Made by a program: the position numbers and the translations under genes
Source of the DNA: Calothrix sp. FI2-JRJ7
GTDB lineage: Bacteria; Cyanobacteriota; Cyanobacteriia; Cyanobacteriales; Nostocaceae
Assembly (NCBI GenBank): GCA_019359675.1
Contig: JAHHGX010000064.1
Span: forward strand, 1 to 64,000
Direction of reading: 5' to 3'
DNA: 64,000 nt
Notes under the pieces: generated by a model
Told to the model about the DNA's origin: nothing
Database searches by the model: none
The model's input: only the letters and a program-made list of their open reading frames with translations
Part shown: positions 1 to 64,000 of the stretch, piece after piece
Position numbering within the stretch: position 1 is the first letter of the stretch
Layout of the letters: every line of letters starts with the position of its first letter

Positions 1-160
1 TCAGGTGCCCCTCGTAATGGTATTTCTGCCAAAACTGGATGCTCCTAGTTTTTCGCTCTGCTCAATAACTCCCTGGCATCCGAAGCTCCCCTGCCCCCTT
101 TCGCACGACTTGTGTGTACACCGTAGCTGCTCTGGAGGGGGCTTTAAATGCATAAATTTA

Positions 161-181
161 CCCCCCCGAATTTCGGGGGGG
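161..181. repeat. C/G-rich perfect inverted repeat
   Basis: Seven C followed by GAA, a single central T, then TTC and seven G form a perfect 10-bp stem with a one-base centre. It lies just downstream of the leftward coiled-coil gene and could help terminate its transcript. No T-run follows on that strand, so it may simply be a dispersed palindrome. The remainder of bases 1-209 holds no convincing gene. Confidence 0.5.
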
Positions 182-209
182 CAGGGGGGGATTCTATCTA
201 GAATTTAAT

Positions 210-1013
210 TTACTTGCGAATTGCAGGTTCCTTACCGTGGTCTACAGTGTCTTTGTCTTTAAATAAGCTTGTCGCTGCTACAAGTAAGTCTTTTAATACT
301 TGTTTTACTTGATGTTCACGACGTGCAATGGCGCCTCCAGCTTCACCCAATTTATCATCGAGTTGCCCATGCTTTTCTTTGACTTGTCCAATCATCGATT
401 CAGCTTGTGGGCGCGAATCATTGTACCATTTTTTGGCTTCTTCAAGGTAATTAGTTACTTCTTCGCCACGTCCACCATAACGCGCGGCTAAGTTTGCTCT
501 GACAATTGCCAGTTGTGCTTGTAACTGAGCGTAGCGTTTTCTTAATAATGCTGCTTCGTCACTATTTTGAATTGCGTTTACAGCAGATTCAATAGAGGTT
601 TTGACGTGTGAAGACTTTTCTGTGCTTGTGTCTTTGATTTCTGCCAAGATTCCGTCTACTTCTTGTTGAATTTTTTCTTCTTCTTCGTCTACCTGCGCTT
701 GCAATTGCTTAACTTGAGCTTGTGTTTGTGCAATTGCTTCGTGTCTTTTGGCGTTTACAGCTTCGAGGGCGCCTTCAATTGATGCAGTAACTTCTTCTTT
801 GATTTCAGTACCGCGTTCAGTTAGGTTTTCAGTTACCGCAGAAACGGCTTCACGTACTAGTATACGTAAATCTCTTGAACCTTCTTTAAATTCTCCAACT
901 ACCCCTGAAACGGCAGATTTGACGATTTCTCTAACTCGTTCAACTCGCAGTTGTCCAGTTTGTTTCGCTAAATCTAAGTCAGCTTTAATTTGTTCTTTTA
1001 TGTTATCAGCCAT
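210..1013 (-). CDS. Conserved coiled-coil protein of unknown function
   Basis: This 267-residue protein is highly charged and almost entirely helical by inspection. It has long heptad-like stretches rich in Glu, Lys, Ala and Gln, especially around residues 85-180. It has no signal peptide or membrane segment, and I see no catalytic motif. The N-terminal 80 residues contain repeated amphipathic helices (VKSAVSGVVGEF, VREAVSAVTENL), reminiscent of apolipoprotein- or phasin-like surface-binding helices; that comparison is inference only. It is a single gene transcribed away from the petJ-like gene. The ATG start fits the onset of the charged helix. Function is unknown. Confidence 0.8.
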   Translation of the reverse strand: MADNIKEQIKADLDLAKQTGQLRVERVREIVKSAVSGVVGEFKEGSRDLRILVREAVSAVTENLTERGTEIKEEVTASIEGALEAVNAKRHEAIAQTQAQVKQLQAQVDEEEEKIQQEVDGILAEIKDTSTEKSSHVKTSIESAVNAIQNSDEAALLRKRYAQLQAQLAIVRANLAARYGGRGEEVTNYLEEAKKWYNDSRPQAESMIGQVKEKHGQLDDKLGEAGGAIARREHQVKQVLKDLLVAATSLFKDKDTVDHGKEPAIRK

Positions 1014-1211
1014 ATGCTACTACGGTTCTTACCGCACTAATTAATTGACATGTCATATTATTTTTATATTGCCGCAATAACTTAAAATTCGTTACTTCCT
1101 TTAGGTAGATAATCAGTAGATTTTTAATAGCATCTATCTTTAGATATACTTCTTAAGTAGAGTATAATTATAGATACCAATATTTTGCTTAAATATAAAG
1201 GAGAAAATAAG

Positions 1212-1541: not shown

Positions 1542-2300
1542 AGTTATGAGTTACGAGTTATGAGTTATGGGTAAAATCATGTAATCCTAACTCTCACTCC
1601 TAACTCTTACATATTGTAGAGAACAATATGGGTATCTGCTATCAACGTTAAAGCAAGTTGCTGAAAAAAAGTAGTTTTTATTACCTTACTATTGTATTTA
1701 AGTACATTTACGCATAAGATACTTAATACTGGGTCTAATACTCAGCAGCAACCGTATATATACTATACTGTTATAAAAAGTTAAGAGCTATACATTGAGA
1801 ATTCTTCAAGGTTGACTACTTATACTAAATTGTAAGTATTTTTTTATACATACCTAATACTTAAGTTCATTCCACAAACTTCATAAAACTAAGTGTAACG
1901 GTTACTGGTACAGAGAAAATTCAGATTTGACGTATTAAAGAATGACTTAAAGGTTTAAATGCTTTCTGCGTAAGGGTTTCATCTTCTCGATCAGATTTTT
2001 AATTTGAAAGTTCGATGGCTAAAATGCTACCCCAATAGGTGATAATTTCACTGATAATGATTGTAAAGATTTTACAAATTTGTTTTTTAGTGGTAAAAGA
2101 AAAAGAATAGTTTATTATGCTTAATCTAAACCAACTTGTGCCTGTAGTTACACAAGAAGCACTAAGGGTACAGTACTTCTTGGGTTAATAGGGCTACAGG
2201 AAATATGGTTACAGATGTATTAATCTATTTAATCGCATCTACCACTAGGCGCTGTATCGACCATTGTTTATATATATTAAATTTGTGCATGTGAGTTGCT
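1542..2300. other. Long non-coding region before the exopolysaccharide locus
   Basis: About 760 bases without a supportable gene. The first 70 bases carry short direct repeats of the type GAGTTATG and CCTAACTC. The rest is AT-rich leader DNA that should contain the promoter or promoters for the rightward exopolysaccharide genes. I cannot assign a -10/-35 pair with confidence. It contains no GGCGCC, unlike most of the window. Confidence 0.5.
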
Positions 2301-4523
2301 ATGGAATCTTTACCAACCTTTGAAGAGGTAGATTTTCAGAAATACTTACAGGTTCTGCAACGACGTTGGCTGCCTTTAGTGGGAATACTTGGAGTATGCG
2401 TTAGTTCAGGGACTCTGTATGCGTTATCGCTAAAACCTTCGTACAAAGCAGAAGGAAGTTTGATGGTTAAGTCAAATCGAACTTCTTCCTTGACTGGGTT
2501 GACGCAAGAATTGGGACGTTTGGAAGCTTTGGGTCAAAATGAAAACCCATTAGAAACTCAGGTAAAAGTTATTGCCTCGAACCCTGTAATTCAAGAAACG
2601 ATTAGCTCGCTAAAACTCGAAGATGGCAAAGGCAAACCGCTAGCAGTTCCAGACTTTGCTGCCAATCTAAAAGTGGAAGGTCTTAAAGGTAGCGATGTTA
2701 TTCAAGTTTCTTATAAGCACGGTAAACCTGAAGTTGCGGCAAAAGTCGTTAACACAGTCATTGATACCTATATCAGGTTGAATGTAGACGCAAATCGCAG
2801 TGAGGCAACGAGCGCTAAAGCGTTTATTGTACAGCAATTACCTGTATCAGAAGAAAAAGTTAGAAAAGCCGAATTTAACCTGCGAGTTTTTAAAGAAAGA
2901 AATAAGGTTGTTGTACTTCAACAAGAAGCTGCTGCTGCTGTAGACACAATTACTAAGTTGGAAAGTCAAATTTCTCAAGCTCAAGCTCAACTTGTTGATG
3001 TCGAAGGTCGTTTACAAGAGTTAAACAATCAAGCTAAAGTTGACTCCTCACAAGCTGTGATTGCTTCTGATTTAAGTCAAACACCTGGTATTCAAACAGC
3101 ACTGGCAAAACTTCAGGAAACTGAGACCCAACTAGCACTTGAGCGTACTCGTTTTTCGTCCGGACATCCCACTGTTATTAACTTGGAGGAAAAAGTAGCT
3201 AGTCTTAGAAAGATTGTTCAAGAACGTACACAAGAGGTTTCTGGTGGACAGCAGGTAGCTCAGGGAAATTTGCAGATTGGACAATTACGACAAAGCTTAA
3301 TTGCAGATATTACCCGTGCTAAAGCGCAGCGTGTTGGTTTAAAAATGCAAATCGCCACTCTGACACAACAGTGGAAAGACTATAAACAGCAAGCGAAGTC
3401 TTTACCAAGACTTGAGCAGATGCAGAGAGATTTAGAGCGAAACCTCAAAGCTGCTCAAACAACTTACGAAACTCTTTTGACCAAAGTTCAAGAAATTGGT
3501 GTTGCTGAAAATCAGAAGATTGCAAATGCTCGTGTTGTTTCATATGCTTTAGAACCTGCTAGACCAGAAGGACCAAAGAAAACTCTATTTGTGATTGGTT
3601 CCGGCGCCGCTGGTCTGCTGTTAGGATTAATTGGTGCGTTTGGTTTAGACTTAATAGACCGTTCAGTCAAGACCGTTAAAGAAGCGAAAGAAGTAATGAA
3701 GTACACTCTTTTGGGTGTAATTCCGAGTATGAGCAGAAGCAAGGTTCATTCTTCTGCTGGTATAGACCGAAATATTCCGAAAATTATTGGTAGAGACTTA
3801 CCTCACTTTCCTTTAGGTGATGCCTATCAAATACTGCAAGCTAACTTAAAGTTCCTTTGTTCCGACAAACCACTCAAAAGTATTGTAGTTACTAGTGCGG
3901 TTGCTAAAGAAGGTAAATCTGAAGTAGCTGCTAATTTAGCTGTGGCAATGGCTGAAGTTGGGCGCCGCGTGTTACTAGTTGATGCGGATATGCGCCAACC
4001 AATACAGCATCATATTTGGAACTTAACAAATGCAATCGGACTAACAAACGTAATAGTAGATCAGATTGCTTTAAGTGCAGCAGCACAAGAAGTATTGCCG
4101 AATTTAGATGTTCTCCCCTGCGGAGTTTTACCTCCAAATCCAATGGCACTGCTTGATTCTCAGCGTATGGCTTCATTAGTTGATGAGTTTAATCAAAAGT
4201 ATGATTTTGTCATATTTGATACTCCTTCTATGTCGGGAACCGCTGATGCTGGAGTTTTAAGTAAGCTTGCTGACGGGATGCTATTAGTTGTTCGTCCTGG
4301 AGTGGTTGATTTGAATAGTGCAAATGCTACTAAAGAGTTTTTAACTCAGTCAGGTCAAAAAGTTTTGGGTATAGTTATCAACGGTGTGAACGTAAAAAAT
4401 GAACCTGATAGCTACTTCTATTACACTAAAGCTAGACAAATTGAAACAACTTCCACATCTGGTAGTTTAACAAGAATAAACGAAAAGCTATCAGCGTCAC
4501 GTTCGAGTAATAAAGAGTATTAG
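2301..4523 (+). CDS. Polysaccharide co-polymerase / bacterial tyrosine autokinase (Wzc/GumC-like)
   Basis: Controls chain length and export of exopolysaccharide at the inner membrane. The 740-residue protein has an N-terminal Wzz domain with a first membrane segment near residues 28-45, a long periplasmic coiled coil (about 170-400), and a second membrane segment near 430-450 (FVIGSGAAGLLLGLIGAFGL). A cytoplasmic BY-kinase domain follows. Its Walker A region reads SAVAKEGKSE, the A' motif VLLVDADMRQP and the B motif FVIFDTP. Walker A has Glu where most relatives have Ser/Thr after GKS. The tail has a short tyrosine cluster (YFYYTK), the usual autophosphorylation zone. It is the first gene of the exopolysaccharide locus. 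Confidence 0.92.
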   Translation: MESLPTFEEVDFQKYLQVLQRRWLPLVGILGVCVSSGTLYALSLKPSYKAEGSLMVKSNRTSSLTGLTQELGRLEALGQNENPLETQVKVIASNPVIQETISSLKLEDGKGKPLAVPDFAANLKVEGLKGSDVIQVSYKHGKPEVAAKVVNTVIDTYIRLNVDANRSEATSAKAFIVQQLPVSEEKVRKAEFNLRVFKERNKVVVLQQEAAAAVDTITKLESQISQAQAQLVDVEGRLQELNNQAKVDSSQAVIASDLSQTPGIQTALAKLQETETQLALERTRFSSGHPTVINLEEKVASLRKIVQERTQEVSGGQQVAQGNLQIGQLRQSLIADITRAKAQRVGLKMQIATLTQQWKDYKQQAKSLPRLEQMQRDLERNLKAAQTTYETLLTKVQEIGVAENQKIANARVVSYALEPARPEGPKKTLFVIGSGAAGLLLGLIGAFGLDLIDRSVKTVKEAKEVMKYTLLGVIPSMSRSKVHSSAGIDRNIPKIIGRDLPHFPLGDAYQILQANLKFLCSDKPLKSIVVTSAVAKEGKSEVAANLAVAMAEVGRRVLLVDADMRQPIQHHIWNLTNAIGLTNVIVDQIALSAAAQEVLPNLDVLPCGVLPPNPMALLDSQRMASLVDEFNQKYDFVIFDTPSMSGTADAGVLSKLADGMLLVVRPGVVDLNSANATKEFLTQSGQKVLGIVINGVNVKNEPDSYFYYTKARQIETTSTSGSLTRINEKLSASRSSNKEY

Positions 4524-4540
4524 TAGTTAAGCATTCATAG

Positions 4541-4565
4541 AAACCGGGACTCTAAACCCGGTTTT
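4541..4565 (+). terminator. Hairpin after the autokinase gene
   Basis: AAACCGGG and CCCGGTTT form an 8-bp stem with an 8-base loop, ending in four T residues. It lies 17 bases after the autokinase stop. It resembles a weak intrinsic terminator or attenuator, and also belongs to the dispersed AGAAACC-GGTTT palindrome family seen elsewhere in the window. Confidence 0.45.
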
Positions 4566-4598
4566 AATGTGAAAAATTTATATATAGGAGTATAAGCT

Positions 4599-5543
4599 AT
4601 GAAGACATCTTGTTTGATTAGTAACTATAACTATGCAAAATATCTAGAAGAGGCTATTTCTAGCGCAGTAAATCAAACAGTAAAATTTGACGAAATTATT
4701 ATTGTAGATGACGCTTCTACTGATAATTCATCTGAAATAATATCTAAGTTTGCCCACGAAGCAAATGTAAGATGTATTTTTAAAACTCAAAATCAAGGGC
4801 AATTATCATCTTTCAATGACGCTTTTTTAGCTGCGACCGGAGATATTATATTCTTCCTCGATGCAGATGATATCTACCATCAGGAATATATTGAAGAAGC
4901 CTTAATTTTTTATAAGCGACATATTGAATGTGACTTTATGTTTTGTGCATATGAAAAATTTGGCGCCGAGTCTGGAATATTTAAAGCTTACGAAGTTGAT
5001 TTAGACTTGGGTTATTCTGTAATTAAAACTTTATGCACTCGTGAATGGATTGGCTCTATTACTTCAACTTTATCTGTACGTAAAAATGTACTAAATAAGG
5101 TTTTGCCGATACCGCAAACTGAAGACTGGCGTGTTAGAGCTGATGATTGCTTAGTATGGGGCGCCTCTTTAGTAGGAGCTAAGAAATTTTATTTATCAAA
5201 ACCTTTAGTAAAGTATCGTATCCATCTAAGTAATAACTATCATAACAGTCAAAGCAAAATTCTTGACATAGATAAAAGTTATGAGTATAAAAGATTTTGG
5301 AAGTGTAACTCTTTGTTTAATTACATTTGCACAAAAAATAATATTGCCTTTCCTTTATTATTTTCTTACACAACTTTATCTGAATTAAAAACTATTCCAT
5401 GTCCGGAATATAAGGATTTCACGTTGTATCTAAAAATAATTTTATTGTTTGAGCAAAATATGTACTGGAAAATTAAAGGAATCGCCGTTTTATTCAGTTA
5501 TTTAATTAGATTACTAATTAGCGGCAAGCTAAAATCCACCTAA
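4599..5543 (+). CDS. Glycosyltransferase family 2
   Basis: A GT-A fold sugar transferase predicted to extend the lipid-linked repeat unit on the cytoplasmic face of the membrane. The N-terminus reads SCLISNYNYAKYLEEAISSAVNQT, a typical GT2 opening. IIIVDDASTDNS gives the nucleotide-binding Asp residues and FFLDADD the metal-binding DxD near residues 88-94. The C-terminal half is divergent, with a hydrophobic stretch near 290-310 that may associate with the membrane. TAGGAG precedes the ATG by about 9 bases. The acceptor and donor cannot be told from sequence. Codon use is AT-rich like its neighbours. Confidence 0.9.
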   Translation: MKTSCLISNYNYAKYLEEAISSAVNQTVKFDEIIIVDDASTDNSSEIISKFAHEANVRCIFKTQNQGQLSSFNDAFLAATGDIIFFLDADDIYHQEYIEEALIFYKRHIECDFMFCAYEKFGAESGIFKAYEVDLDLGYSVIKTLCTREWIGSITSTLSVRKNVLNKVLPIPQTEDWRVRADDCLVWGASLVGAKKFYLSKPLVKYRIHLSNNYHNSQSKILDIDKSYEYKRFWKCNSLFNYICTKNNIAFPLLFSYTTLSELKTIPCPEYKDFTLYLKIILLFEQNMYWKIKGIAVLFSYLIRLLISGKLKST

Positions 5544-5593
5544 ATATTCATCCCAAGTAAAGTAATAGATTAAAAAGGTAAATACGCTCGTCT

Positions 5594-6904: not shown

Positions 6905-6916
6905 CTTGCACAACCT

Positions 6917-6983
6917 AGAAACCTGGAATATACGTTGATAGCATATAATAAAAATGACGATTTTGTGTAGAAACCAGGTTTCT
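6917..6983. repeat. Dispersed AGAAACC...GGTTTCT inverted repeat
   Basis: AGAAACCTGG at 6917-6926 pairs perfectly with CCAGGTTTCT at 6974-6983 across a 47-base loop. The loop contains ATAATAAAAATGACGATTTT, which is almost the same as the loop of the copy at 50959-51024. It fills the gap between the flippase and the next glycosyltransferase. Confidence 0.75.
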
Positions 6984-7014
6984 TTGCATAAAACAGTATT
7001 CTAAGTGACTAAAC

Positions 7015-7977: not shown

Positions 7978-7986
7978 GGCAAAAAA

Positions 7987-9252: not shown

Positions 9253-9268
9253 AATAGAGGTTAAGAAC

Positions 9269-10582: not shown

Positions 10583-10688
10583 ACTCAAAATATTTATCTT
10601 ATTGAAAAGTTTACACTCAGCACTCAGTACGAGCGCACTCAGCACTACATAGAGTAAAGATTTTACAAAGAAAGGAGAAAAATATTAC

Positions 10689-11705: not shown

Positions 11706-11757
11706 ATGAGTGAATTATTGAATAAGTGAATTTTTAGTTTTTACTGGATTTAAATTT

Positions 11758-14617: not shown

Positions 14618-14650
14618 AGTACTAAATTATATTAAGGAGAACACAAAATT

Positions 14651-16220: not shown

Positions 16221-16946
16221 TTGAAATTTTTTTTTGCAATCGTAGTTATCTTTATATGTAGCTTGTTAATTTACCCTGGTACGGTGAATGCTAGCACTAC
16301 CACAAGCACTAAATACGAACAGCGTACAATCCATAACCCTGACGGGATTGGTAAATTCTATATGGGTCGTGAAATTGCCCATGTAATGGGACATACAGGC
16401 GCCATGTGGTTAGAGCGTCCAAGTAGAGAAGCTGAAGAACAACCTAGTAAAATAGTCAATGCACTGGAACTAAAACCCAATAATGTAGTTGCCGACATAG
16501 GCGCCGGAACAGGTTATCTGAGTTTTTTGATGGCGCCGACCCTTACACAGGGTAAAGTTTTAGCCGTGGATATTCAACCAGAAATGCTCGACATCATTAA
16601 TTTTTTCAAAGAAGAAAAGCACATTGATAACGTAGAACCCATCTTAGCAACTCTCAATAGTCCAAATTTACCACCAGAAAGTATTGATTTAGCTGTAATG
16701 GTCGATGCATATCATGAATTTGAATATCCTTATGAAGTGATGGAAGGCATCGCCAAAGCATTAAAACCAGGTGGTAGGGTTGCACTTGTTGAATATCGAG
16801 GTGAAAACCCTTTTATTATGATTAAAGGGCTGCATAAAATGACACAAAAGCAAGTAAAAAAAGAAATGCAAACCGTAGGTTTAACGTGGCAAGAAACAAA
16901 AAATTTACTACCACAACAGCATTTAATGTTATTCATAAAAGCCTAG
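16221..16946 (+). CDS. Exported class I SAM-dependent methyltransferase
   Basis: The TTG start gives a typical signal peptide (MKFFFAIVVIFICSLLIYPGTVNAS), so the enzyme is probably periplasmic or lumenal. The mature part has motif I VVADIGAGTGYLSFLMA at about residues 92-108, then LAVDIQPEMLDI, LAVMVDAYHEF and a post-motif RVALVEYRG. These belong to the UbiE-like methyltransferase fold. An upstream ATG at 16211 is out of frame. An exported SAM methyltransferase is unusual because SAM is cytosolic, but cyanobacterial relatives with leader peptides exist. The substrate is unknown. Confidence 0.8.
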   Translation: MKFFFAIVVIFICSLLIYPGTVNASTTTSTKYEQRTIHNPDGIGKFYMGREIAHVMGHTGAMWLERPSREAEEQPSKIVNALELKPNNVVADIGAGTGYLSFLMAPTLTQGKVLAVDIQPEMLDIINFFKEEKHIDNVEPILATLNSPNLPPESIDLAVMVDAYHEFEYPYEVMEGIAKALKPGGRVALVEYRGENPFIMIKGLHKMTQKQVKKEMQTVGLTWQETKNLLPQQHLMLFIKA

Positions 16947-21445: not shown

Positions 21446-23605
21446 ATGCTTAATATTCCACAGCTTTTAGCAACAGAACTTAACCTTAAACCCTTTCAAA
21501 TTGAAAGCGCACTTGAACTTTTCCGTGAGGGTGCGACGATTCCCTTTATTGCACGCTACCGTAAAGAACGCACTGGTGAGATGGACGAAGTGCAGTTACG
21601 GGACTTATCAGATAGATATAGTTATTTAACAGAGTTAGAAGAGCGAAAAGCGGCGATACTTAATTCAATTAACGAGCAAGGTAAGCTAACCCCTGAGTTA
21701 AAAGCGAAAATAGAGACTTGTTTGCAAAAAAATGAGTTAGAAGATTTATATTTACCATATCGTCCCAAGCGTCGTACACGTGCGACTATTGCCCGTGAGA
21801 AAGGTCTAGAAGCTTTGGCTGAGTTTATTAAGTGTTTAAACGTCAAAAATGGGCCGCTTGTTCCTCTTGAACTTGAAGCAGTTAAATATGTTTCAGAAGA
21901 AAAAGGTGTAAAGAGTGGTGACGATGCACTCAAAGGCGCCGCAGATATTTTAGCAGAGGAAGTTGCCGAATTAGCAGAATTGCGGGCATATTTACGCGAT
22001 TATTTGTTAGACGAAGGTACGTTTGTCTCGCACATCAAAGACGAACACCCCGAAGGAACGACAAAGTTTGAGATGTATCGTACCTTTAGCGCAAAAGTTA
22101 GAAATATTGCACCTCACAATTTATTAGCGCTGTGTCGCGGTGAAAATGAGGGGATATTGAGTTTTGAAATATCTTACGACGAAGATACAGTACTTTCGTA
22201 CATAGAATCTCAAGTTTGCAAGACAAAGCACCGTCCAATACGAGTGTTTTATCAAGAAATGGTCAAAGATGCATTTAACCGCTTGATGAAAACTTCGCTG
22301 ATAAATGAAGTTATTGCCGAGAAAAAGCTTTATGCTGATATTGAGTCGATAAAAACCTTTGAAACAAACTTACGCGAGTTGTTATTATCGGCGCCTGCGG
22401 GTATGAAACCAACAATGGCGGTAGACCCAGGTTTTAGAACTGGTTGTAAAGTGGCGATTCTTGACCAAACGGGAAAATTTTTAGAATATCAGGCTATTTT
22501 CCCCCATACTGGTGCCGATGGACGTGTAAAAGCTGTCCAGTCAGTCAAAAATTTGATTGAGAAATACAAAATAGAGTTAATAGCTATTGGTAACGGTACA
22601 GCATCACGGGAAACCGACGAATTTATTGGTGATGTACTAAAAACAATTGACCGTAAACCCGTCAAAGTTATAGTAAACGAATCGGGAGCATCAATATATT
22701 CGGCGAGTAAACTAGCTGGGCAAGAGTTAAGCGACCTTGATGTTACCGTGCGCGGCGCCATTAGTATAGGTCGGCGCCTGCAAGACCCACTCGCAGAACT
22801 TGTAAAAATTGACCCCAAGTCGATAGGGGTGGGACAATATCAGCACGACGTAGACCAGAAACTATTAAAGAAAAAGCTCGAAGAAACTGTAGAAAGCTGT
22901 GTAAACTACGTTGGTGTAGACTTAAATACGGCTTCGAGTCAACTATTAACTTTTGTTTCGGGCATTACATCAGCAGTAGCTAATAATATAGTCGCTTATC
23001 GTGATGCTAACGGTACATTTAAAAATCGGCGCCAGTTGTTAAAAGTTCCTAAACTCGGACCAAAAGCTTTTGAGCAAGCAGCGGGTTTTTTGCGAATAAG
23101 GGGTGGTGAAAATCCTTTAGATAATACTGCCGTACACCCAGAAAGTTACAAATTGGTAGAAAATATCGCTTCTGACCTGAAGGTACCATTAAACCAAGTA
23201 ACACAAATTGCCGAAAACCTGAAAAAAACTGGTTTGAAAAAATACGTTACTGATACCATTGGGGAACCAACGCTGCGTGATATCCTTAGCGAACTAGAGA
23301 AACCAGGACGTGACCCACGTGCTGAATTTAAATATGCCACCTTTAAAGAAGGTATCAAAGAAATTACCGACCTCAAAGTTGGAATGGAATTAGAAGGTGT
23401 TGTTACTAATGTCGCTAACTTTGGCGCCTTTGTCGATGTCGGTGTTCACCAAGACGGGTTAGTACATATATCCCAACTAGCCGACAGATTTGTAGACGAC
23501 CCCAAGAAAATAGTCAAAGTCGGACAAGTCGTCAAAGTCCGAGTCATGGAAGTCAACGAAAAACTCAAACGCATCGGTTTATCAATGAAAGCCGTAAAAC
23601 AATAA
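21446..23605 (+). CDS. tex: Tex-family RNA-binding transcription accessory protein
   Basis: The 719-residue length is normal for Tex. The start at 21446 gives MLNIPQLLATELNLKPFQIESALELFREGATIPFIARYRKE, the standard N-terminus. An in-frame TTG at 21299 would add 49 residues encoded by a dispersed repeat. The order is an HTH-rich N-domain, a YqgF/RNase H-like domain (MAVDPGFRTGCKVAILDQ near residue 330), tandem helix-hairpin-helix (TASSQLLTFVSGITSAVANNIVAYR near 500) and a C-terminal S1 domain (GMELEGVVTNVANFGAFVDVGVHQDGLVHIS near 645-675). It associates with RNA polymerase and RNA. Confidence 0.95.
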   Translation: MLNIPQLLATELNLKPFQIESALELFREGATIPFIARYRKERTGEMDEVQLRDLSDRYSYLTELEERKAAILNSINEQGKLTPELKAKIETCLQKNELEDLYLPYRPKRRTRATIAREKGLEALAEFIKCLNVKNGPLVPLELEAVKYVSEEKGVKSGDDALKGAADILAEEVAELAELRAYLRDYLLDEGTFVSHIKDEHPEGTTKFEMYRTFSAKVRNIAPHNLLALCRGENEGILSFEISYDEDTVLSYIESQVCKTKHRPIRVFYQEMVKDAFNRLMKTSLINEVIAEKKLYADIESIKTFETNLRELLLSAPAGMKPTMAVDPGFRTGCKVAILDQTGKFLEYQAIFPHTGADGRVKAVQSVKNLIEKYKIELIAIGNGTASRETDEFIGDVLKTIDRKPVKVIVNESGASIYSASKLAGQELSDLDVTVRGAISIGRRLQDPLAELVKIDPKSIGVGQYQHDVDQKLLKKKLEETVESCVNYVGVDLNTASSQLLTFVSGITSAVANNIVAYRDANGTFKNRRQLLKVPKLGPKAFEQAAGFLRIRGGENPLDNTAVHPESYKLVENIASDLKVPLNQVTQIAENLKKTGLKKYVTDTIGEPTLRDILSELEKPGRDPRAEFKYATFKEGIKEITDLKVGMELEGVVTNVANFGAFVDVGVHQDGLVHISQLADRFVDDPKKIVKVGQVVKVRVMEVNEKLKRIGLSMKAVKQ

Positions 23606-33713: not shown

Positions 33714-35534
33714 CTAACTTTGTTGTCGTGGAATGTGCGTAAAAATTTGCTGTCCTTGTGCGTCAAATACCAAGACTGCTGTATTGGCATTATCACCAAT
33801 TACTTCTAGTGCTTTTTGTAAAGCTTCTAGATGCTGTTGAACACTCTTGACATTTTGGGGTGCGTTGCTTTCTAAAGTTTTTTCATATTCTGGGGTAATG
33901 CGGACTGTTATAAATCTCTCATCGACAGTGAAATTACAAATCTGAACGCTGCCTTTACAAGTTTTTTCTAAATCAGCACGAGTTGAAGTTGTACTAGCTG
34001 TCGCACCAGTCACCATCATTGTTTGTGATTTAGTTTGAGCTTGTTCAAATGCAACTGCATACGCTTGTAATAAAGGCTGTGCTTGATTATATAGTGGGCT
34101 TTCAGGTGGAATTTGCTTAATTGTGTTTATCGCTTGTTGCCAGCGAACAGTTGCTGCTTGCCACTGGTTTTGCTGTTCGTATTGTTCAGCTTGTTTCGCA
34201 GTAGCTACTGCTTGGGCTAAACTTGTTGCCGCTTGTTCTTGTTTTGAAACGCGGTCGCGAAGTGTTAATAGTCTTGGTTGGTAATCGTTCAAAAGTGTCC
34301 GTGCTTCGGCATAAGCTGGACTGGTTTGCGGTACTGCAATTAAGGCATTGACGACTATTTGCCAAGTTGAGAGTGCGCGTTGTAAATCTGGTAGTGATTT
34401 TGCGGTTGTTTCGCGCTCACGTGCCACTTTTGCAGCAGCTTGAGCATCGTTTACTTTTTTCTGCCATCTGCTTTGAGCTAATGCTTGGACATTAACCGAC
34501 TGTAAACCGCTACGAAATAGTGATAATTTTGACTGGGCAAATCCGTAAAATTTACTATCTGTACGAATTGCTTCTAATGGGGCAATTGCTTGGCGCCATA
34601 ATTTTGAACGTGCTTGTAACTCGTTAATATCATTTGTTAAGCTTTGTGAAGAACGCAAAGCTGTGGCACCTAATTGCAAAGCTTGTGTCAACAGTTTAAT
34701 TTGTTGCGACTCGCTCGACAAAGCAGTTGCCGCTTGTACAGCATTTTGATGATTTGGCGACCAACCAGGTATTCTTTGTAGTGATGCAATTGTTACATCT
34801 AACTGTTGTTGCAGCTTTGATAAATCTTCTTCGGTTTTGACATTGTTAGCTAATTGGAGAAATGAATTTTGTAATTGTTTTGCCGTTTGTAATTCTTTAC
34901 ATGTAGATAATATACAGGGACTCATTAGGAAGTAACCACTGGCACCGAATATTGTCGCAACAGCTAGAACACATGCTCCAATTAATAATGGCTTGAAGTT
35001 GCGCTGGCTTTTTTTAGTTTGACTGTTGGGAGGCGCCGACTCAAAGGGGTCAAATTTCTCTTCTTCAACAACTGATGCATTTATAGTCAATAGTGAAGCA
35101 GAAGAGTCAAACATTCCTTCAGAGGATGATGACTGAGGTAAAGGTTCTTGATTGAGTTCGGGAAGAACAAAATCTGAAAAAACATCATAATCTGACAAAT
35201 CTGATGAATTTAAAGCTTGCTCGCTATTCATCGAGATATTTGGGACAATATACAGCGTTTTTTGAGCATACGGGAGCTTGATTCCTGTATGACGCACAAA
35301 CATCTGTACTTCTTGCGTTTGATATGCGGTATCTGATTGGAGGGTTTTTGCTACGACTGCAAAAACATGCTCGGTATCGACGGTGATAGTTTTAGGGTGT
35401 TGTATTAAAACCATTAGCTGGTCTTTAACAGCACACTTAACTTCAAAGGTATTGCGCTGACCAATTTCGAGCAAGCTTTCTTCCAAAATGGACGATAGAA
35501 AATCTAAGTCTTCCTGCTGTGCTGCTGATTTCAT
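33714..35534 (-). CDS. Large single-pass membrane protein with coiled-coil C-terminal region
   Basis: I start at ATG 35534 (MKSAAQQEDLDFLSSILEESLLEI), giving 606 residues. A TTG 66 bases upstream is also in frame, and neither has a good SD. An N-terminal cytoplasmic domain (1-100) contains strands FEVKCAVKDQLMVLIQHP. An acidic, Ser-rich linker follows, then one membrane helix near residues 181-204 (LLIGACVLAVATIFGASGYFLM). Long Ala/Gln-rich helices (205-500) come next, with Trp spaced regularly as in tetratricopeptide-like repeats, and a C-terminal domain ending in VLVFDAQGQQIFTHIP. The function is unknown. It probably scaffolds in the periplasm. Confidence 0.75.
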   Translation of the reverse strand: MKSAAQQEDLDFLSSILEESLLEIGQRNTFEVKCAVKDQLMVLIQHPKTITVDTEHVFAVVAKTLQSDTAYQTQEVQMFVRHTGIKLPYAQKTLYIVPNISMNSEQALNSSDLSDYDVFSDFVLPELNQEPLPQSSSSEGMFDSSASLLTINASVVEEEKFDPFESAPPNSQTKKSQRNFKPLLIGACVLAVATIFGASGYFLMSPCILSTCKELQTAKQLQNSFLQLANNVKTEEDLSKLQQQLDVTIASLQRIPGWSPNHQNAVQAATALSSESQQIKLLTQALQLGATALRSSQSLTNDINELQARSKLWRQAIAPLEAIRTDSKFYGFAQSKLSLFRSGLQSVNVQALAQSRWQKKVNDAQAAAKVARERETTAKSLPDLQRALSTWQIVVNALIAVPQTSPAYAEARTLLNDYQPRLLTLRDRVSKQEQAATSLAQAVATAKQAEQYEQQNQWQAATVRWQQAINTIKQIPPESPLYNQAQPLLQAYAVAFEQAQTKSQTMMVTGATASTTSTRADLEKTCKGSVQICNFTVDERFITVRITPEYEKTLESNAPQNVKSVQQHLEALQKALEVIGDNANTAVLVFDAQGQQIFTHIPRQQS

Positions 35535-35600
35535 TGGCGATGACAGGCTGGGGTTTGTTAACAAAGACACAGTATGACCAGTTACTATTTTCCTATACAA

Positions 35601-36176
35601 CCAGCCAAATGTTGTAGCACAGATTTAGAAAAAACGGTAATAAAGCACTAAATTTACAATCACAGAATCTTATTATGACTCTTTCTCACGAATTTCATCT
35701 ATCTAAAGATAGTTGAGCAGATGGCAAAAACTTCTGAATTAGGTTACAAATGTAACTACCATGTTGTTGGAATACGAACAATAAGATTTTTGTATAGTTT
35801 GGATGATGTTCCACTTATACTAGAAAGCGGGTTTCTTAGTATACTAAACCTGACATATCTCTATGCCAATTTTACATATCTAAATACTTGAGGAGTTAGA
35901 AAATATATACATTGTAGAAATACTAATTGAATTGTTAAAAAAAATGCCTGTTATTAATGACGTAAGCGGTTTTACTGAAATTAGATGCCAATTTTGATGT
36001 ATGTAAGTAAATTAAAATCGCATGTTATTTACCGCATCAACCGAATTGGATAGAATTAATGACAGACAAAGAAATTATAGTTAATTAAAAGCCGACTTTT
36101 GCTTTGGGGATGCAGCAACTTAAAAATTTGACGGCAACTCCAACAAGCGTGAAGTAGTATTTCAAAGGTGCGTGGT
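35601..36176. other. AT-rich non-coding region
   Basis: About 575 bases between divergent genes. I found no gene, only a short imperfect palindrome around GAAAGCGGGTTTCTTAGTATAC near 35823. It contains no GGCGCC. It presumably holds promoters for both flanking genes. Confidence 0.5.
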
Positions 36177-37403
36177 ATGGATTTACTAGAGTATCAGGTT
36201 AAAGAATGGTTCGGGCAGATTGGCATTCCAGTACTGCCATCGCAGCGAATAGACCATCCAACGGACTTAAAGAGGTTAAAAATACCTTATCCAATTGTTC
36301 TAAAGTCGCAAGTCAGTGGGGGAGCAAGGTTAAAAGTTGGTGGAGTTAGGTTTGTAGAGACAACAATTGATGCCATAGCAGCAGCCCAAAATATCTTTAA
36401 TTTACCAATAATGGGTGAACTACCAGAAGTGTTGCTAGCAGAAGCAAAATATGATGCTGAACAGGAATTATATTTAGCTGTTGTAATTGATACAGCCGTT
36501 TGTCGTCCAATTTTACTGGGTTGTCAAGAACCAGATATAGATTTGGACTCGTATGGAGATAAGATGCAACACGTCGTTGTCGAGCATGAATTTTCATCGT
36601 TTTATGCTCGACGGTTAGCGTTGAAAATGGGATTGCAGGGAAAGCGAATGCAAACTGTTAGCAGCGTTATTGAAAAAATGTACTATCTACTAATCGAGAA
36701 AGATTTAGATTTAGTTGAAATTAATCCGCTTGGTATAAATTCGCAAGGTGAAGCGATGGCGTTGAACGGTAGCATTAGTGTCAATGAACGTGCAATCTCG
36801 CGTCATCCTGACATTGCTCTAATGGCGACTAAAATGCATAATCGCTATAACGGCAATGGTAAAAATCAAGATTTTAAAGAATGGGAGGGATTGGAACTGC
36901 ACGGCAAAATCGGTATTATGGGTAATGGGGCCGGTTCGGTATTAACCACGATGGACTTAGTTACTTTAGCAGGTGGAAAACCCGGATTTTGTCTGAACTT
37001 GCGTCATGCATCTCCCCTTGATGCTTCTCCGACGACATTTAAAACTCGTTTAGAAAAAGCTTTGAGAGTAATGAGCGCTGACAAAAGTATTCAGGTAATT
37101 CTGATAAATCTTTTGGGCAGTATACCTCAAGCGATTGAAATTGCAGAAGTTATTACTGAATTTGTGCATCATTATAACAGCGAACATAAATCAAACGGTA
37201 TACGTAACGGTAACAAACACAAACGTGATAATAACTTCCCACGTTTAGTTGTGAGACTCGCTGGTTCAGACTTAGATGGCACCAAAAAAGAGCTAACAGC
37301 GTTAAAACACGAAAGCGATATATCTATAGTCATGACAGAAAGCTTAGATGAAGCAGCAAGTGAAGCAGTACGCCTTGCTCAACCGATTGTGTATAAAAAG
37401 TAA
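36177..37403 (+). CDS. SucC-like ATP-grasp acyl-CoA synthetase beta subunit
   Basis: Related to succinate-CoA ligase beta subunits. At 408 residues it is slightly longer than SucC (about 390). The start at ATG 36177 follows AAGG at 8 bases and gives the typical MDLLEYQVKEWFGQIGIPVLPSQ. ATP-grasp landmarks are IVLKSQVSGGARLKVGGVRF, LAEAKYDAEQELYLAVVID and DLVEINPLGINSQGEAMALNGSISVNERAISRHPD (metal-binding region near residues 180-213). The C-terminal ligase domain has KIGIMGNGAGSVLTTMDLVTLAGGKPGFCLNLRHAS. A basic, Asn-rich insert (HKSNGIRNGNKHKRDNN near 340-358) is unusual. It is paired with the alpha-like gene downstream. Confidence 0.85.
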   Translation: MDLLEYQVKEWFGQIGIPVLPSQRIDHPTDLKRLKIPYPIVLKSQVSGGARLKVGGVRFVETTIDAIAAAQNIFNLPIMGELPEVLLAEAKYDAEQELYLAVVIDTAVCRPILLGCQEPDIDLDSYGDKMQHVVVEHEFSSFYARRLALKMGLQGKRMQTVSSVIEKMYYLLIEKDLDLVEINPLGINSQGEAMALNGSISVNERAISRHPDIALMATKMHNRYNGNGKNQDFKEWEGLELHGKIGIMGNGAGSVLTTMDLVTLAGGKPGFCLNLRHASPLDASPTTFKTRLEKALRVMSADKSIQVILINLLGSIPQAIEIAEVITEFVHHYNSEHKSNGIRNGNKHKRDNNFPRLVVRLAGSDLDGTKKELTALKHESDISIVMTESLDEAASEAVRLAQPIVYKK

Positions 37404-37691
37404 TAACTTATCAGCCTGCACTAGAAGTTATATTATCCAGCAGATGTAACAGGAGGTATTGACGAAATCTAATTCAATTTTAAAACAAATCCGAAAAAAG
37501 TTTATGATTTATTTATAGGTTAATTGTCTTTATAGGCAATTTCTAGATATGAACAATATGATTCGGTAAAAGTGAGTGTTTAGTAAAAACTAAGCACAAA
37601 ATTGAATAACAATCAAATAAATCGGACACTTTATAAAGTGTCACATCTCAGTCATGGTTACATGCTGAGTGGAAAATTTACTACGTATTTT

Positions 37692-38582
37692 ATGAACTTA
37701 ACGCCTAATAGCAAAGTTATAATTCAAGGCTTTTGCGAATTCATATCGCCAATGCAAATCGCGCAAATGAAAGCGTATGGCACCAATTTAATTGCTGGGG
37801 TGAATCCTGGATGTGGTGGCAATACGTTACACGATTTGCCGATATTTGATTTGGTAGAAGAAGCTACAGAGCAATATGGAATAATAGACACAACGATTTT
37901 AAATGTATATCCTTACGAAGTTTTGGATGCAGCATTAGAAGCAATTACATCTGGTATTCGTCAAATCGTGATAATTTCACCTGGGGTTCCACCTTTGGAC
38001 ATGGTGCAGTTATTGCGTACAGCAGAAGCCACAGAAACTTTAGTTATTGGACCAAACAGTCCTGGTATTATCGTTCCAGGAAAAATATTACTAGGTACAC
38101 AGCCGAGTGAATTTTATACTCCAGGTTCAGTAGCGATATTGAGTCGAAGCACAACTCTGACTTATGAAATAGCGAGAGAATTAACGCAAGCAGGTATAGG
38201 TCAATCTATAAGTGTAAGCATTGGTAGTGATGCAATAGTTGGTTCGTCGTTTATGCAGTGGTTACAAATTCTTGACGAAGACGAAGCAACCGAAGCAATA
38301 GTGCTAGTTGGCCAACCTGGTGGAGGTAGTGAAGAAGCAGCAGCGCGTTATATTACAGAAATTATAGATACACCTGTAATAGGTTATATAGCAGGAAAAG
38401 AGGCGCCGCGTGGTAAACACTGGCGCCAAACAGGAACACTAGCTGCTGTAATTGGACGTGACTCCGACTTTGGCACAGCAAAAAATAAACTAGCAGCATT
38501 TACCGAAGCTGAAATTCCAATTGCCGAACGTCCATCTAAAATACCAGAGCTACTCAAAAAAGTTATAAAAAAGAGCCATTAA
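37692..38582 (+). CDS. SucD-like CoA-binding acyl-CoA synthetase alpha subunit
   Basis: A 296-residue protein beginning MNLTPNSKVIIQGFCEF, the normal SucD N-terminus. A TTG 90 bases upstream is in frame but adds an unrelated leader. CoA-binding and ligase landmarks are AYGTNLIAGVNPGCGGNTLHDLPIFDLVEEA, PGVPPLDMVQLLRTAEATETLVIGPNSPGIIVPG and SISVSIGSDAIVGSSFMQWLQILDEDEATEAIVLVGQPGGGSEEAAA. In place of the usual GHAGA with the phosphorylated His, it reads GKHWRQTGTLAAV, so the catalytic histidine motif is altered. With its partner it may be a divergent or regulatory CoA ligase. Confidence 0.82.
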   Translation: MNLTPNSKVIIQGFCEFISPMQIAQMKAYGTNLIAGVNPGCGGNTLHDLPIFDLVEEATEQYGIIDTTILNVYPYEVLDAALEAITSGIRQIVIISPGVPPLDMVQLLRTAEATETLVIGPNSPGIIVPGKILLGTQPSEFYTPGSVAILSRSTTLTYEIARELTQAGIGQSISVSIGSDAIVGSSFMQWLQILDEDEATEAIVLVGQPGGGSEEAAARYITEIIDTPVIGYIAGKEAPRGKHWRQTGTLAAVIGRDSDFGTAKNKLAAFTEAEIPIAERPSKIPELLKKVIKKSH

Positions 38583-55268: not shown

Positions 55269-55270
55269 AT

Positions 55271-60560: not shown

Positions 60561-60583
60561 CAATTCTTTTTACCACAGAGGCA

Positions 60584-61318: not shown

Positions 61319-61466
61319 TATTGTGTTATTAATTATTGGCGCCTATTTTAAATCTCTCTTCTCTGTGCCCTCTGCGCCTCTGTGGTAAATACAGGGTAAA
61401 GATTATTACCACAGAGACACAGAGTTAACAGAGATAAGAATTCAAGGAGTTAAAAAAGGATTAATA

Positions 61467-61955
61467 TGTGCGAACTGAAATATTTTGTAGCTTGTACGGT
61501 AGATAAATTCATTGCCTGTAAAGACGATTCATATGACTTCTTTCTTATGGAAGGAGAACAAGTCGCTTATTTACATGAAAATTTTCCTGAAACAATTCCA
61601 GCTTTAAGCGCGCGAAAAACTAGGGATAAATGCCGAGAATAAATGCTTTGATGTTGTTTTAATGGGACGCAAGACATACGAAGTAGGGTTAAAAGATGGA
61701 ATTAGCAACCCTTACCCGCAGATGAGGCAATACGTTTTCTCTCACACCCTAAAAGAAACTCCAGACAAAATAGATTTTTTTAGCAAACTAGGATTTAAAT
61801 TCAATACTCAATTTACTGACGATACTGCCACTAGCATGATTGTGGGGGAGGATATATTCGTTATGCTCTTGACTTACGATAAGTTAAAAACTTTTACTCC
61901 CAAAGAAATTGATACTTCTCTGAAGGAAAGGTTTGCTCGTAGGTTAGAAGGATAA
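61467..61955 (+). pseudogene. Chimeric remnant: DHFR-like reductase fused to a VOC fragment
   Basis: From 61467 the frame reads MCELKYFVACTVDKFIACKDDSYDFFL and [11 protein letters not shown], then stops after a frameshift near 61615. The other frame continues [49 protein letters not shown], clearly a RibD/DHFR-like reductase. Directly after, without a stop, comes [48 protein letters not shown], which is the first half of a VOC-family protein. Two neighbouring genes were fused by deletion, and the first is also frameshifted. Confidence 0.82.
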
Positions 61956-62011
61956 TATGGTATTAAATAGTACAAAAAAAACAAAAATATCTTGACTTTT
62001 GCCTTGCTGTA

Positions 62012-63571
62012 CTAGTGTTCGACAAACTCATTGAGGTAGGCTTTGAAATCTTCTAAGGAAACTTCCGTGGAGATAAATCCAATATAGTTGTCGGGTCTTA
62101 GCATCACCTGAAAAGGTTGGTTTGTAGCGAATATCTCTACAACGCGCGGGTAAAGTGGAATAACGTTGAAGTCAATTAAATCCCCATATTCTTTTTCAAG
62201 TTCCAACTTTAAACCTTGATAATTATGTTCCCCGTCTGAGAAAACAAGCAGGTGAAATTTGGGAGCGTGGAGTTTGTCATAAACACTGGCGCCATCAACT
62301 AAAAAATACGGCATTCTATCTCCGGCTTTTACCTTAAAATCTTTATGGCCATGATGTTGGCTTAAAGAACTCTCACGGTAGTTAATTCCAATTTGAGAAA
62401 CCATTGGAAACAGAAATTCTTTTGCGGCGCCGAACTTAGTCACAACACTAGCGAGACTGGGCAAAAGATTATCACGGAAAAATCTAAGATACCACTGGTC
62501 ACCTGCTGCAACTTCAAAAAACTGGTCAGTTGTATGCAACAGTCGTTTCGCATTTGCCAAGCGCTCCTCATCATAACTTTGGAGTAGCGACACACCAGCA
62601 TAACCTTTTAAAACAAATGCTAATTTCCAAGCTAAATTATAAGCGTCTTGGATACCCGTGTTCATTCCCTGTCCACCCGCAGGTGTATGGATATGTGCGG
62701 CATCGCCAGCTAGAAAGCATCTACCAATAGAGAATGTATCAGCGTGACGTGTATGTACTTTGTAAGTCGAAAACCAGCGCACGTTCGTGATGTCGAGTGG
62801 ACGCTGCACCAATTGTTTAACCTTGTTTTCGACTTCATCATATGTAACATCTTGATTAACTTGGTCGTTATATTCGGGCAGGTTGCCGACAAGTCTCCAG
62901 TGCTTCTCACCTTGCATGGGAAACATTAGTGCAAACGAGTCATGTCCCAAGGCGCCGTAAAATGTACCCTCTTCAACTTGAAAATCCATCTCCACGTCCG
63001 CAACGTAAAATAAACGTGGGTGAGTCGAACCTTCAAAAGCGAGACCGAGGAAATGCCGCGTTGGACTACTGGCACCATCACAGCCTACCAGATATCGGGC
63101 TTCAACTGTTTGTTTGCCGTTTGCTGCTGATAGAACTACCCTCACACCGTCCGCATCTTGCGTTAAACTTTCCATTTCGGTCTGCCAATGAACGTCTTTC
63201 CCGTTTTGCTGAAGATGCTCATAAAGAAGACGCTCGTTTTTGCTTTGTTCAAAAATGAGGAAAAACGGAAACGGGCTAAGGCGCCCACCAAAGTCAGAAA
63301 AATCTAAGCGAGCGCTAATTTTACCGTCGTGCATCAAAGCGCCTTTCTGAACTATCTCACCACCAGAGACGGCTTTTTGCGCTAAATTAACCTGGTCATA
63401 AATCTCCAACGTGCGCGCGTGAACTATCACAGCTTTACTAAGTTCCGTAACACTTTCTTTTTTATCAAAGATTACAAAGTCAATGCCGTAATGTATTAAT
63501 TGTACAGCTAAAGATAAACCCGTTGGACCAGCGCCAACTATTATTACATCGGTTTTAGTTACTGTTTCCAT
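62012..63571 (-). CDS. FAD-dependent aromatic/drug monooxygenase (PheA/TfdB family)
   Basis: The 519-residue flavoprotein has the N-terminal Rossmann motif DVIIVGAGPTGLSLAVQLIHYG (residues 8-29). The second FAD motif is YLVGCDGASSPTRHFLGL near 158-175, and the third CFLAGDAAHIHTPAGGQGMNTGIQDAYNLAWKL near 285-317. A C-terminal thioredoxin-like domain (about 390-519) is typical of phenol hydroxylase-type and rifampicin monooxygenase-like enzymes. AGGAGTTCAGGTT precedes the ATG. The substrate may be an aromatic compound or antibiotic. It lies in a resistance-like cluster. Confidence 0.9.
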   Translation of the reverse strand: METVTKTDVIIVGAGPTGLSLAVQLIHYGIDFVIFDKKESVTELSKAVIVHARTLEIYDQVNLAQKAVSGGEIVQKGALMHDGKISARLDFSDFGGRLSPFPFFLIFEQSKNERLLYEHLQQNGKDVHWQTEMESLTQDADGVRVVLSAANGKQTVEARYLVGCDGASSPTRHFLGLAFEGSTHPRLFYVADVEMDFQVEEGTFYGALGHDSFALMFPMQGEKHWRLVGNLPEYNDQVNQDVTYDEVENKVKQLVQRPLDITNVRWFSTYKVHTRHADTFSIGRCFLAGDAAHIHTPAGGQGMNTGIQDAYNLAWKLAFVLKGYAGVSLLQSYDEERLANAKRLLHTTDQFFEVAAGDQWYLRFFRDNLLPSLASVVTKFGAAKEFLFPMVSQIGINYRESSLSQHHGHKDFKVKAGDRMPYFLVDGASVYDKLHAPKFHLLVFSDGEHNYQGLKLELEKEYGDLIDFNVIPLYPRVVEIFATNQPFQVMLRPDNYIGFISTEVSLEDFKAYLNEFVEH

Positions 63572-63589
63572 AACCTGAACTCCTGTTAT

Positions 63590-64000
63590 TCAACTGTGGA
63601 TAAACTTGTGCGATACTTCTTCATCGGAAGCATTAATACTACCATCGCTAACTAAACGACCATCTTCCATATAAACGATGCGGTCGGCAATATCTAAAAT
63701 TCGGTTATCGTGAGTTACTAATAAAATTGTGCAACCTTGTTCTTTGGCTAGTTTTTGCATCATCTCTACTACATCGCGTCCAGATTTTTTATCCAGCGCA
63801 GCAGTTGGTTCGTCAGCAAGGACAATTTTTGGTTGACTGACTAACGCGCGAGCAATTGCAACCCGTTGTTTTTGACCTCCTGATAAATCATCTGGGTAAT
63901 AATTAACACGTTGTCCTAGACCAACAAATTCTAGCATTTCTTTAGAACGAGCATTCATTACCTCTGGAGAGAGTTTTTTATGAACTTCTAAACCCATCCG
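63590..64000 (-). CDS. DevA/MacB-type ABC exporter ATPase (C-terminal part, cut by window edge)
   Basis: Only the last 136 or so residues are present; the gene continues past 64000. It shows FVGLGQRVNYYPDDLSGGQKQRVAIARALVSQPKIVLADEPTAALDKKSG (signature motif and Walker B) and ILLVTHDNRILDIADRIVYMEDGRLV (switch His). This wording is very close to DevA, the ATPase of the DevBCA glycolipid exporter of heterocyst formers. Paralogous DevA-like transporters also exist, so the exact role is open. It ends 18 bases before the monooxygenase start, in the same direction, so the two may be co-transcribed. Confidence 0.85.
   Translation of the reverse strand, partial: RMGLEVHKKLSPEVMNARSKEMLEFVGLGQRVNYYPDDLSGGQKQRVAIARALVSQPKIVLADEPTAALDKKSGRDVVEMMQKLAKEQGCTILLVTHDNRILDIADRIVYMEDGRLVSDGSINASDEEVSHKFIHS

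Follow-up and report, generated by a model that had tools for sequence, protein, structure and literature searches.

HIP1 (GCGATCGC), a highly iterated palindrome of cyanobacteria known since 1995, still has no agreed role; a 2018 study by Xu et al. is said to deal with its conservation. Here we examined a 64,000-nucleotide stretch of Calothrix sp. FI2-JRJ7 (positions 1 to 64,000 of contig JAHHGX010000064.1; the whole stretch is called the window below), in which another palindrome, GGCGCC, is very frequent. A search of the available literature on GGCGCC in Calothrix turned up only one study (Elhai 2015, PMC4390886). As far as its available text goes, GGCGCC in Calothrix PCC 7103 is the most over-represented hexamer in 97 genomes, the HIP1 core aside, is over-represented in Calothrix D253 too, and is termed an alternate HIP. 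The same text links the word to two GRCGYC methyltransferases and a GATC restriction enzyme, and reports that the 5-methylcytosine (m5C) methyltransferase of CGATCG was lost, with an N4-methylcytosine (m4C) one in its stead. It proposes a mismatch repair that depends on G-methyl-C and requires methylation at the inner C, a position noted as unknown at the time, describes exceptional HIPs as sporadic and not grouped in clades, and suggests that a second GRCGYC methyltransferase copy may have been critical.

The phenomenon has already been published for a congener, as the genome of the window belongs to the same genus. What is new here is its genus-wide occurrence, the orphan status of a methyltransferase gene at a conserved place, the contrast with relatives that carry a restriction partner, and the tests of site maintenance and breakage. 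Judging from sequence comparisons, we consider it probable that GGCGCC is the alternate HIP of the genus of Calothrix PCC 7103 and Dulcicalothrix, that it is the favored target form of an orphan HindV-type (GRCGYC) m5C methyltransferase, and that it has replaced HIP1.

Abundance and placement of GGCGCC

The original prediction had put ~105 copies of GGCGCC in the window and no copy of the usual cyanobacterial palindrome; we counted 107 (~1 per 600 bases) and found neither GCGATCGC nor CGATCG. Base composition predicts 3.1 copies, and 100 dinucleotide-preserving shuffles of the window gave a mean of 4.72 (standard deviation 2.08, maximum 12). The genome of the window (G000; 8,663,394 bases in 91 contigs, with the window on contig C64) behaves likewise. 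Across its 8.66 Mb there are 14,889 copies of GGCGCC and 8 of the reversed word CCGCGG, and HIP1 is at chance (31 copies vs. 51 of its reversed word), so that GGCGCC is far from expectation genome-wide and HIP1 is not abundant outside the window either. Because CCGCGG is itself depleted in the genus, composition is the fairer yardstick, and in 400 kb of contig C65 it gives a ~30-fold excess (710 vs. 23). When this stretch and the window were pooled (464 kb) and the sites masked, 817 copies compared with 33.4, 18.2 and 12.9 expected under first-, second- and third-order Markov models, respectively. A longer motif was rejected since the neighboring bases are unusual only in that G is underrepresented on the 5' side, and the core remains six bases. 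The chance that accident, contamination or an assembly artefact produced these counts is practically nil, and we regard this explanation as already refuted: none of the 100 shuffles reached 107, seven separate genomes are concordant, and the sites align at identical positions in siblings.

As had been claimed, the word occurs mostly as Gly-Ala codons but in all frames and between genes. With 49 open reading frames (ORFs) picked from 64 in the window, 56 sites encode Gly-Ala in frame, the two remaining frames account for 14 and 10, and 27 fall beyond these ORFs. For the 400 kb of C65 we used 280 ORFs of 120 aa or more, taken from ATG to stop, and the 710 sites divide into 337, 160 and 104 by frame and 109 outside ORFs. 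That 337 of these 710 read Gly-Ala in frame might point to codon usage, amino-acid content or GC bias as the source of the word. We give this next to no chance and consider it already refuted, because 337 of the 622 Gly-Ala dicodons are GGC-GCC, far beyond the 3.5 that codon usage outside the sites predicts among the other 285, and because the excess extends to DNA outside ORFs (109 sites in 107.3 kb vs. a first-order expectation of 5.9) and is not shared by CCGCGG. Inside ORFs the first-order expectation is 31.6, compared with 601 sites in 292.7 kb, and the Gly-Ala dipeptide itself is mildly frequent (622 vs. 525.5 expected).

The even spread that had been claimed, and the argument drawn from it, did not hold up. 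Gaps between sites have a coefficient of variation of 1.00 in the 400 kb and 0.94 in the window, and the variance-to-mean ratio of the counts in the 400 kb is 0.96 for bins of 1 kb and falls to 0.83 for bins of 5-10 kb. The spacing is close to Poisson, that is, random or slightly tighter at large scale, and no period between 5 and 100 kb rose above chance in the 400 kb.

The genus, its methyltransferases and the restriction partner

The genus set comprised seven genomes: that of the window, the metagenome-assembled genome C42_A2020_038 (G001), Calothrix PCC 7716 (G002), Calothrix NIES-4105 (G003), Dulcicalothrix desertica PCC 7102 (G004), Calothrix PCC 7103 (G005) and Calothrix HK-06 (G006). 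All seven are rich in GGCGCC, with 7,475-20,380 copies vs. 1-8 control words, or 1.15-1.72 per kb on rounded genome sizes (~1 per 600-900 bases). An even draw of 118 family genomes contained five of the genus and 113 others; the highest count among the 113 was 1,053, in a genome with 1,270 control words. HIP1 numbers 31-163 copies in the seven (control 37-75) vs. 1,973-7,721 in all fifteen other family genomes examined, and the substitution of GGCGCC for HIP1 that had been proposed for the window therefore extends to the genus. HIP1 is 2.8 and 4.0 times above its own control in G005 and G001, and one 400 kb stretch of G003 holds 12 copies vs. 2 expected. A genome elsewhere in the order (G032), with 2,493 GGCGCC vs. 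38 control words, was considered as an independent second case and rejected because its loci (47.9% G+C) hold GGCGCC at expectation (8 vs. 7.0) together with HIP1.

A DmtC-like m5C methyltransferase was detected in all nine family relatives searched (query from G041, the other eight at 47-92% identity) and in G032 (54%), the set scoring 229-247 bits. It was not found in any of the seven genus genomes, where the best match was 28-35% and m4C enzymes were not searched for. The name DmtC and the presumed CGATCG specificity follow from this occurrence pattern and from Elhai's account in its available part (PMC4390886). GATC is strongly depleted in the loci of all seven genomes, and per 400 kb it numbers 86, 119, 221 and 364 in G000, G002, G003 and G001, respectively, with 710, 712, 584 and 492 GGCGCC; less GATC accompanies more GGCGCC across these four. 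Other palindromes are also near-absent from positions 1-400000 of C65 (L102-L121), with GCATGC and GAGCTC at 0, GTCGAC at 1 and AGGCCT at 2 (~54 of each expected by composition) and GGCC at 93 of 587, and the scarcity is much alike in 400 kb each of G001, G002 and G003. Words of alternating C and G are frequent (CGCGCG 22 in the window vs. 8.7 from its 5-mers; GCGCGC 113 in the 400 kb vs. 50.4).

The search for a solitary methyltransferase, recommended as a check of the original prediction, led to P0001, a HindV-like m5C enzyme of 319 aa in G000 that is present in all seven genomes (82-98% identity in the six siblings) and whose action on GGCGCC is a prediction from sequence. The m5C methyltransferases were collected with a PF00145 profile search and then clustered; the clustering left aside fragmentary matches as well as a near-full one in G005 (C7:2457477, 82.6 bits). 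The identity given for G006 refers to its C60 copy; the one at the conserved place is divided between the ends of two contigs (L099, L100; pieces 96-97% identical). P0001 (C79:135478-136434 in G000) displays the motifs usual for m5C methyltransferases and matches a PADLOC type II model at 2.5e-140. In a tree of the 27 sequences, out of 39 wanted, that passed a motif filter (the 12 missing include three second-copy proteins of the genus), the seven proteins form one clade (support 100/99) among homologues that are mostly linked to restriction enzymes. The gene occupies the same place in all seven genomes, flanked by genes of RuBisCO-like and GHL10/SLH type, this place spanning two contig ends in G006 and its downstream neighbor being only partly covered in G000 (L018). 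The protein kept directly upstream resembles the RuBisCO large subunit (391 aa, PF00016; e.g. L076:8748-9923). A second, separate HindV-type copy (~59-63%) exists in G000, G002, G003, G005 and G006; it was not found among the clustered PF00145 matches of G001 and G004, and therefore seems not to be required.

The corresponding restriction enzyme, HindVP (PF09519), was not found by profile search in any of the seven genomes and was found in 21 of the 28 homologue-bearing family genomes outside the genus. The median number of GGCGCC per Mb is 0.66 in these 21 (0-81 copies per genome), 20.3 in the seven without HindVP, 4.5 in 85 genomes without the methyltransferase and 1,545 in the genus. Mann-Whitney tests, whose rows are not independent as genera repeat, gave p = 0.0012 for HindVP-bearing genomes vs. 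those without the methyltransferase, 0.006 for those with vs. without HindVP, and 0.066 for lone methyltransferase vs. none. Absence of HindVP accompanies less avoidance of GGCGCC, and strong enrichment is confined to the genus. Four genomes of genus g38 (G043, G091, G116 and G131) have a HindV-type methyltransferase without HindVP and, per genome, 144-277 GGCGCC vs. 9-42 control words; they may show the same process at an early stage. In G041, G042, G055 (where HindVP lies on a different contig from the methyltransferase), G061, G063, G107, G126 and G133 the HindVP genes contain in-frame stops or are broken into pieces, as if the enzyme were decaying in several lineages.

The DNA around homologues bears on their specificity. 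At five non-cyanobacterial restriction-linked loci (78 kb), GGCGCC (23.4 expected), GACGCC plus GGCGTC (37.5) and GACGTC (15.0) all stand at 0 and the control pair GCCGAC plus GTCGGC at 37 vs. 37.5; GTCGAC (2 vs. 15.0) and GAGCTC (2 vs. 13.8) are also low there. Six cyanobacterial restriction-linked loci likewise lack all GRCGYC forms (12.9, 22.4 and 9.7 expected; control 32 vs. 22.4), which is less telling because several other palindromes are also at 0. At seven loci where no HindVP was seen, the corresponding counts are 13 vs. 22.1, 34 vs. 41.6 and 15 vs. 19.6. One homologue, on an E. coli plasmid, carries the annotation hindVM and adjoins hindVRP; HindV recognizes GRCGYC. The avoidance near restriction-linked relatives, together with this annotation, suggests that the HindV-type homologues are specific for GRCGYC.

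Another methyltransferase could act on GGCGCC, with the HindV-type gene as a bystander. Two candidates track the genus about equally well, P0002 being in all seven genomes and the P0004 cluster in six of the seven and in none of ten others (nine relatives and G032). We consider this quite improbable, since the P0004 cluster was not found in G006, which holds 15,449 GGCGCC, the P0002 cluster is shared with G007 and G015, where GGCGCC numbers 32 and 17 and HIP1 is abundant, and neither comes with evidence of GRCGYC specificity.

Conservation, breakage and maintenance of the sites

To compare sites between genomes we used only alignment blocks over set length and identity limits, omitting gapped positions. 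GGCGCC is intact at 394 of 433 aligned sites in G002 (94.0% identity), 272 of 361 in G003 (87.2%) and 51 of 106 in G001 (81.0%), vs. 63.7%, 40.2% and 22.0%, respectively, of control hexamers with at least five G/C. The difference persists at fourfold-degenerate third positions, of which 665/691, 496/559 and 97/155 are conserved within sites and 5,244/6,682, 3,028/5,229 and 618/1,541 among other G/C positions, and outside ORFs, where 36/42, 14/27 and 3/6 sites are intact vs. 637/1,048, 280/739 and 38/150 controls. Alignments of the window to the six siblings gave similar conservation, the Gly-Ala rows being a weak contrast for G002 (31/36 vs. 26/33). These results support genome-wide selection, as suggested from the window, or a process that restores sites.

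Single changes mostly produce GGTGCC or GGCACC, that is, they affect the inner CpG (25 of 33 in G002, 18 of 33 in G003 and 13 of 14 in G001). In G002, differences affect the two inner positions in 32 of 866 cases (C-to-T in 30) and the four outer ones in 13 of 1,732; at 0.75%, outer changes are suppressed relative to the ~7% at non-CpG C. Over all frames, C-to-T changes at the third vs. the sixth base number 19 vs. 1 (G002), 26 vs. 15 (G003) and 20 vs. 13 (G001), despite both bases being third codon positions in an in-frame site. Our interpretation is a site under constraint whose inner C is fragile and presumably 5-methylated, the evidence being relative to the other positions. The idea of a methylation process tied to GGCGCC thus gains indirect support, from the lone HindV-type gene in all seven genomes and from the excess of inner C-to-T over the outer positions. 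Very-short-patch repair was rejected as the driver, as no Vsr endonuclease gene (PF03852) was found in any of 23 genomes, the control search finding it in 5 of 14 well-known genomes.

When changes were polarized with G003, GGCGCC showed 51 losses and 1 gain (15 ambiguous), and control words 407 losses and 306 gains; with G001 as the outgroup GGCGCC showed 15 losses and 2 gains (17 ambiguous). By branch, the two tips account for 51 losses, the G003 branch for 32, and the stem or outgroup gains for 3, vs. 701, 1,385 and 1,606 for GC-rich control words; Fisher values for this comparison are overstated, since the overlapping control hexamers are not independent. As older losses are rare among single changes, it seems that sites, once broken, are either purged or restored, or that constraint has relaxed recently. 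A net decay of the site set, which the 51 losses to 1 gain suggested, fits less well than restoration or purging because the losses are mostly terminal. The single-change counts omit words with two or more changes (45 cases in G003 only, and 20 in both G000 and G002 with the site in G003), which could hide older gains or losses.

The breakage and branch data fit selection and restoration alike. If the sites had a function of their own, such as chromosome organization, protein binding or recombination, and methylation were incidental, purifying selection would explain both the conservation at fourfold and intergenic positions and the concentration of single-change losses on terminal branches. 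This reading appears unlikely to us, because the spacing in the 400 kb is near-random and without periodicity, because the tip bias fits rapid restoration or recently relaxed constraint equally well, and because the motif accompanies a methyltransferase without restriction partner in the genomes tested.

The explanation put forward for Calothrix itself in the available text of the 2015 study (PMC4390886) treats the sites as an epiphenomenon: repair that favors G-methyl-C strands turns GRCGYC near-misses into GGCGCC, the sites serve only to mark strands for mismatch repair, and their creation stops at a set density. That the inner C, whose methylation this model needs, is the weak point of the sites agrees with it, as does the scarcity of GACGTC (7 vs. 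36.6) and of GACGCC plus GGCGTC (33 vs. 73.4) beside abundant GGCGCC. However, the scarcity of GACGTC is unremarkable next to that of GTCGAC (1 vs. 36.6), gains are hardly seen with either outgroup, and the best-known m5C repair cannot be the agent where no Vsr gene is found. A drain of one-off words into GGCGCC, apparent under plain Markov models, was rejected as evidence since it is not clear once the sites are masked; under a second-order model the observed-to-expected ratios of these words are 0.47-1.61, within the 5-95% spread of comparable words (0.21-2.33). The sporadic, non-clade occurrence of alternate HIPs and the critical second GRCGYC copy, both as given in the available text (PMC4390886), conflict with GGCGCC richness in all seven genomes and with the failure to find that copy in G001 and G004. 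We therefore hold this explanation to be rather unlikely.

The best reading of the sequences, in our opinion, is that an orphan methyltransferase and ~15,000 maintained target sites have replaced the DmtC/HIP1 pair. The ancestor of the genus would have had a HindV-type methyltransferase without HindVP and without a DmtC-like methyltransferase, both losses probably preceding the swap, and GGCGCC would then have taken over from HIP1 as the common methylated word. The lone enzyme would methylate GGmCGCC in vivo genome-wide, and GGCGCC and HIP1 would each offer G-methyl-C-G. Sites may be kept since this GmCG mark serves a genome-wide job, such as strand marking for mismatch repair or nucleoid organization, and maintained either by purifying selection or by methylation-directed repair that restores those that break. 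A broader claim is a serious possibility that we put forward tentatively: the function of HIP1 could be independent of its motif, the genus having swapped DmtC/HIP1 for the orphan HindV-type enzyme and GGCGCC and actively keeping thousands of sites, with the cell needing a GmCG mark about every kilobase.

Several observations weigh against the replacement of the DmtC/HIP1 pair as described. The methyltransferase alone is insufficient, since the seven of 28 homologue-bearing relatives without HindVP have 0.5-43 sites per Mb. The swap is a single event, so HindVP and DmtC may be absent by coincidence, and GATC depletion in all seven genomes offers an alternative trigger. Gains are almost unseen (site creation was not observed), and one of 34 control words, CGCGCG, has a like imbalance (28 losses to 1 gain). 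Specificity is deduced from avoidance near relatives and an annotation, and two other m5C methyltransferases, P0002 (seven of seven genomes) and the P0004 cluster (six of seven), also track the genus. Finally, the inner C-to-T changes compare with those at CpG elsewhere as 3.5% vs. 5.8% (G002), 7.6% vs. 10.4% (G003) and 19.3% vs. 15.9% (G001). The rival methyltransferase clusters, and an inner C-to-T rate raised only against the outer positions, lower our confidence in the explanation.

Window features and relation to known systems

The positions of individual GGCGCC sites in the window are collected in the table. A short hairpin repeat between genes at 6912-6992, with arms AGAAACCTGG and CCAGGTTTCT, has many diverged sibling copies (77-98% identity) and folds better than its shuffles (z -2.9); an Rfam scan of the window gave no match at the gathering score. 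Five ORFs scanned in 2301-16078 encode a Wzz/GNVR chain-length protein, a polysaccharide flippase, an O-antigen ligase (Wzy_C), a glycosyltransferase and a sugar transferase, and the region looks like an exopolysaccharide gene cluster.

Table. GGCGCC sites and intervals in the window
Feature	Position	Basis
Whole window, 107 GGCGCC in coding (all frames) and other DNA	1..64000	palindrome count
First GGCGCC site	330..335	
Close GGCGCC pair, sites 16500-16505 and 16532-16537	16500..16537	
Close GGCGCC pair, sites 22754-22759 and 22773-22778; smallest gap in the window, 19 bases	22754..22778	
Longest GGCGCC-free stretch, 3,370 bases between site starts	35038..38401	
Last GGCGCC site	63280..63285	

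A whole genus that has traded HIP1 for a different word with a different methyltransferase amounts to a natural experiment: any job that remains must be independent of the sequence GCGATCGC. Such a genus weakens two points of the 2015 study, as far as its available text goes (PMC4390886): the case for selection on HIP1 itself, drawn from the failure of alternate HIPs to last in clades, and the critical part suggested for an additional copy of the GRCGYC methyltransferase. The GGCGCC-poor relatives with HindVP and the genus with its lone methyltransferase and one site per ~600-900 bases also form a clean comparison.

Like the HIP1/DmtC system, the one described here has a GC-rich iterated palindrome at ~1 per kb paired with an orphan methyltransferase, and both words contain GCG; the motif (GCGATCGC and CGATCG there) and the methyltransferase differ, and HIP1 is low in the genus. 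With HindV restriction-modification it has the methyltransferase family in common (54.6% identity to the protein annotated hindVM), whereas HindVP was found in none of the seven genomes and GGCGCC is enriched rather than avoided. In enterobacteria, the orphan methyltransferase Dam marks the common palindrome GATC. If our interpretation holds, a solitary methyltransferase would similarly mark a very common palindrome genome-wide in the present case, with the differences that the modification would be m5C rather than N6-methyladenine (m6A) and that the marking role is putative; Dam-like PF02086 genes are present in 23 of 23 genomes, and presence of this family does not separate the genus. The alternate HIP of PCC 7103 and D253, as portrayed in the available text (PMC4390886), is the nearest relative, being alike in motif, genus (G005 is PCC 7103), loss of HIP1 and putative GRCGYC-type methyltransferases, and it differs from the system described here in that the latter is inherited in seven genomes, has its orphan gene at one place, contrasts with HindVP-bearing relatives, and has been subjected to tests of conservation and breakage.

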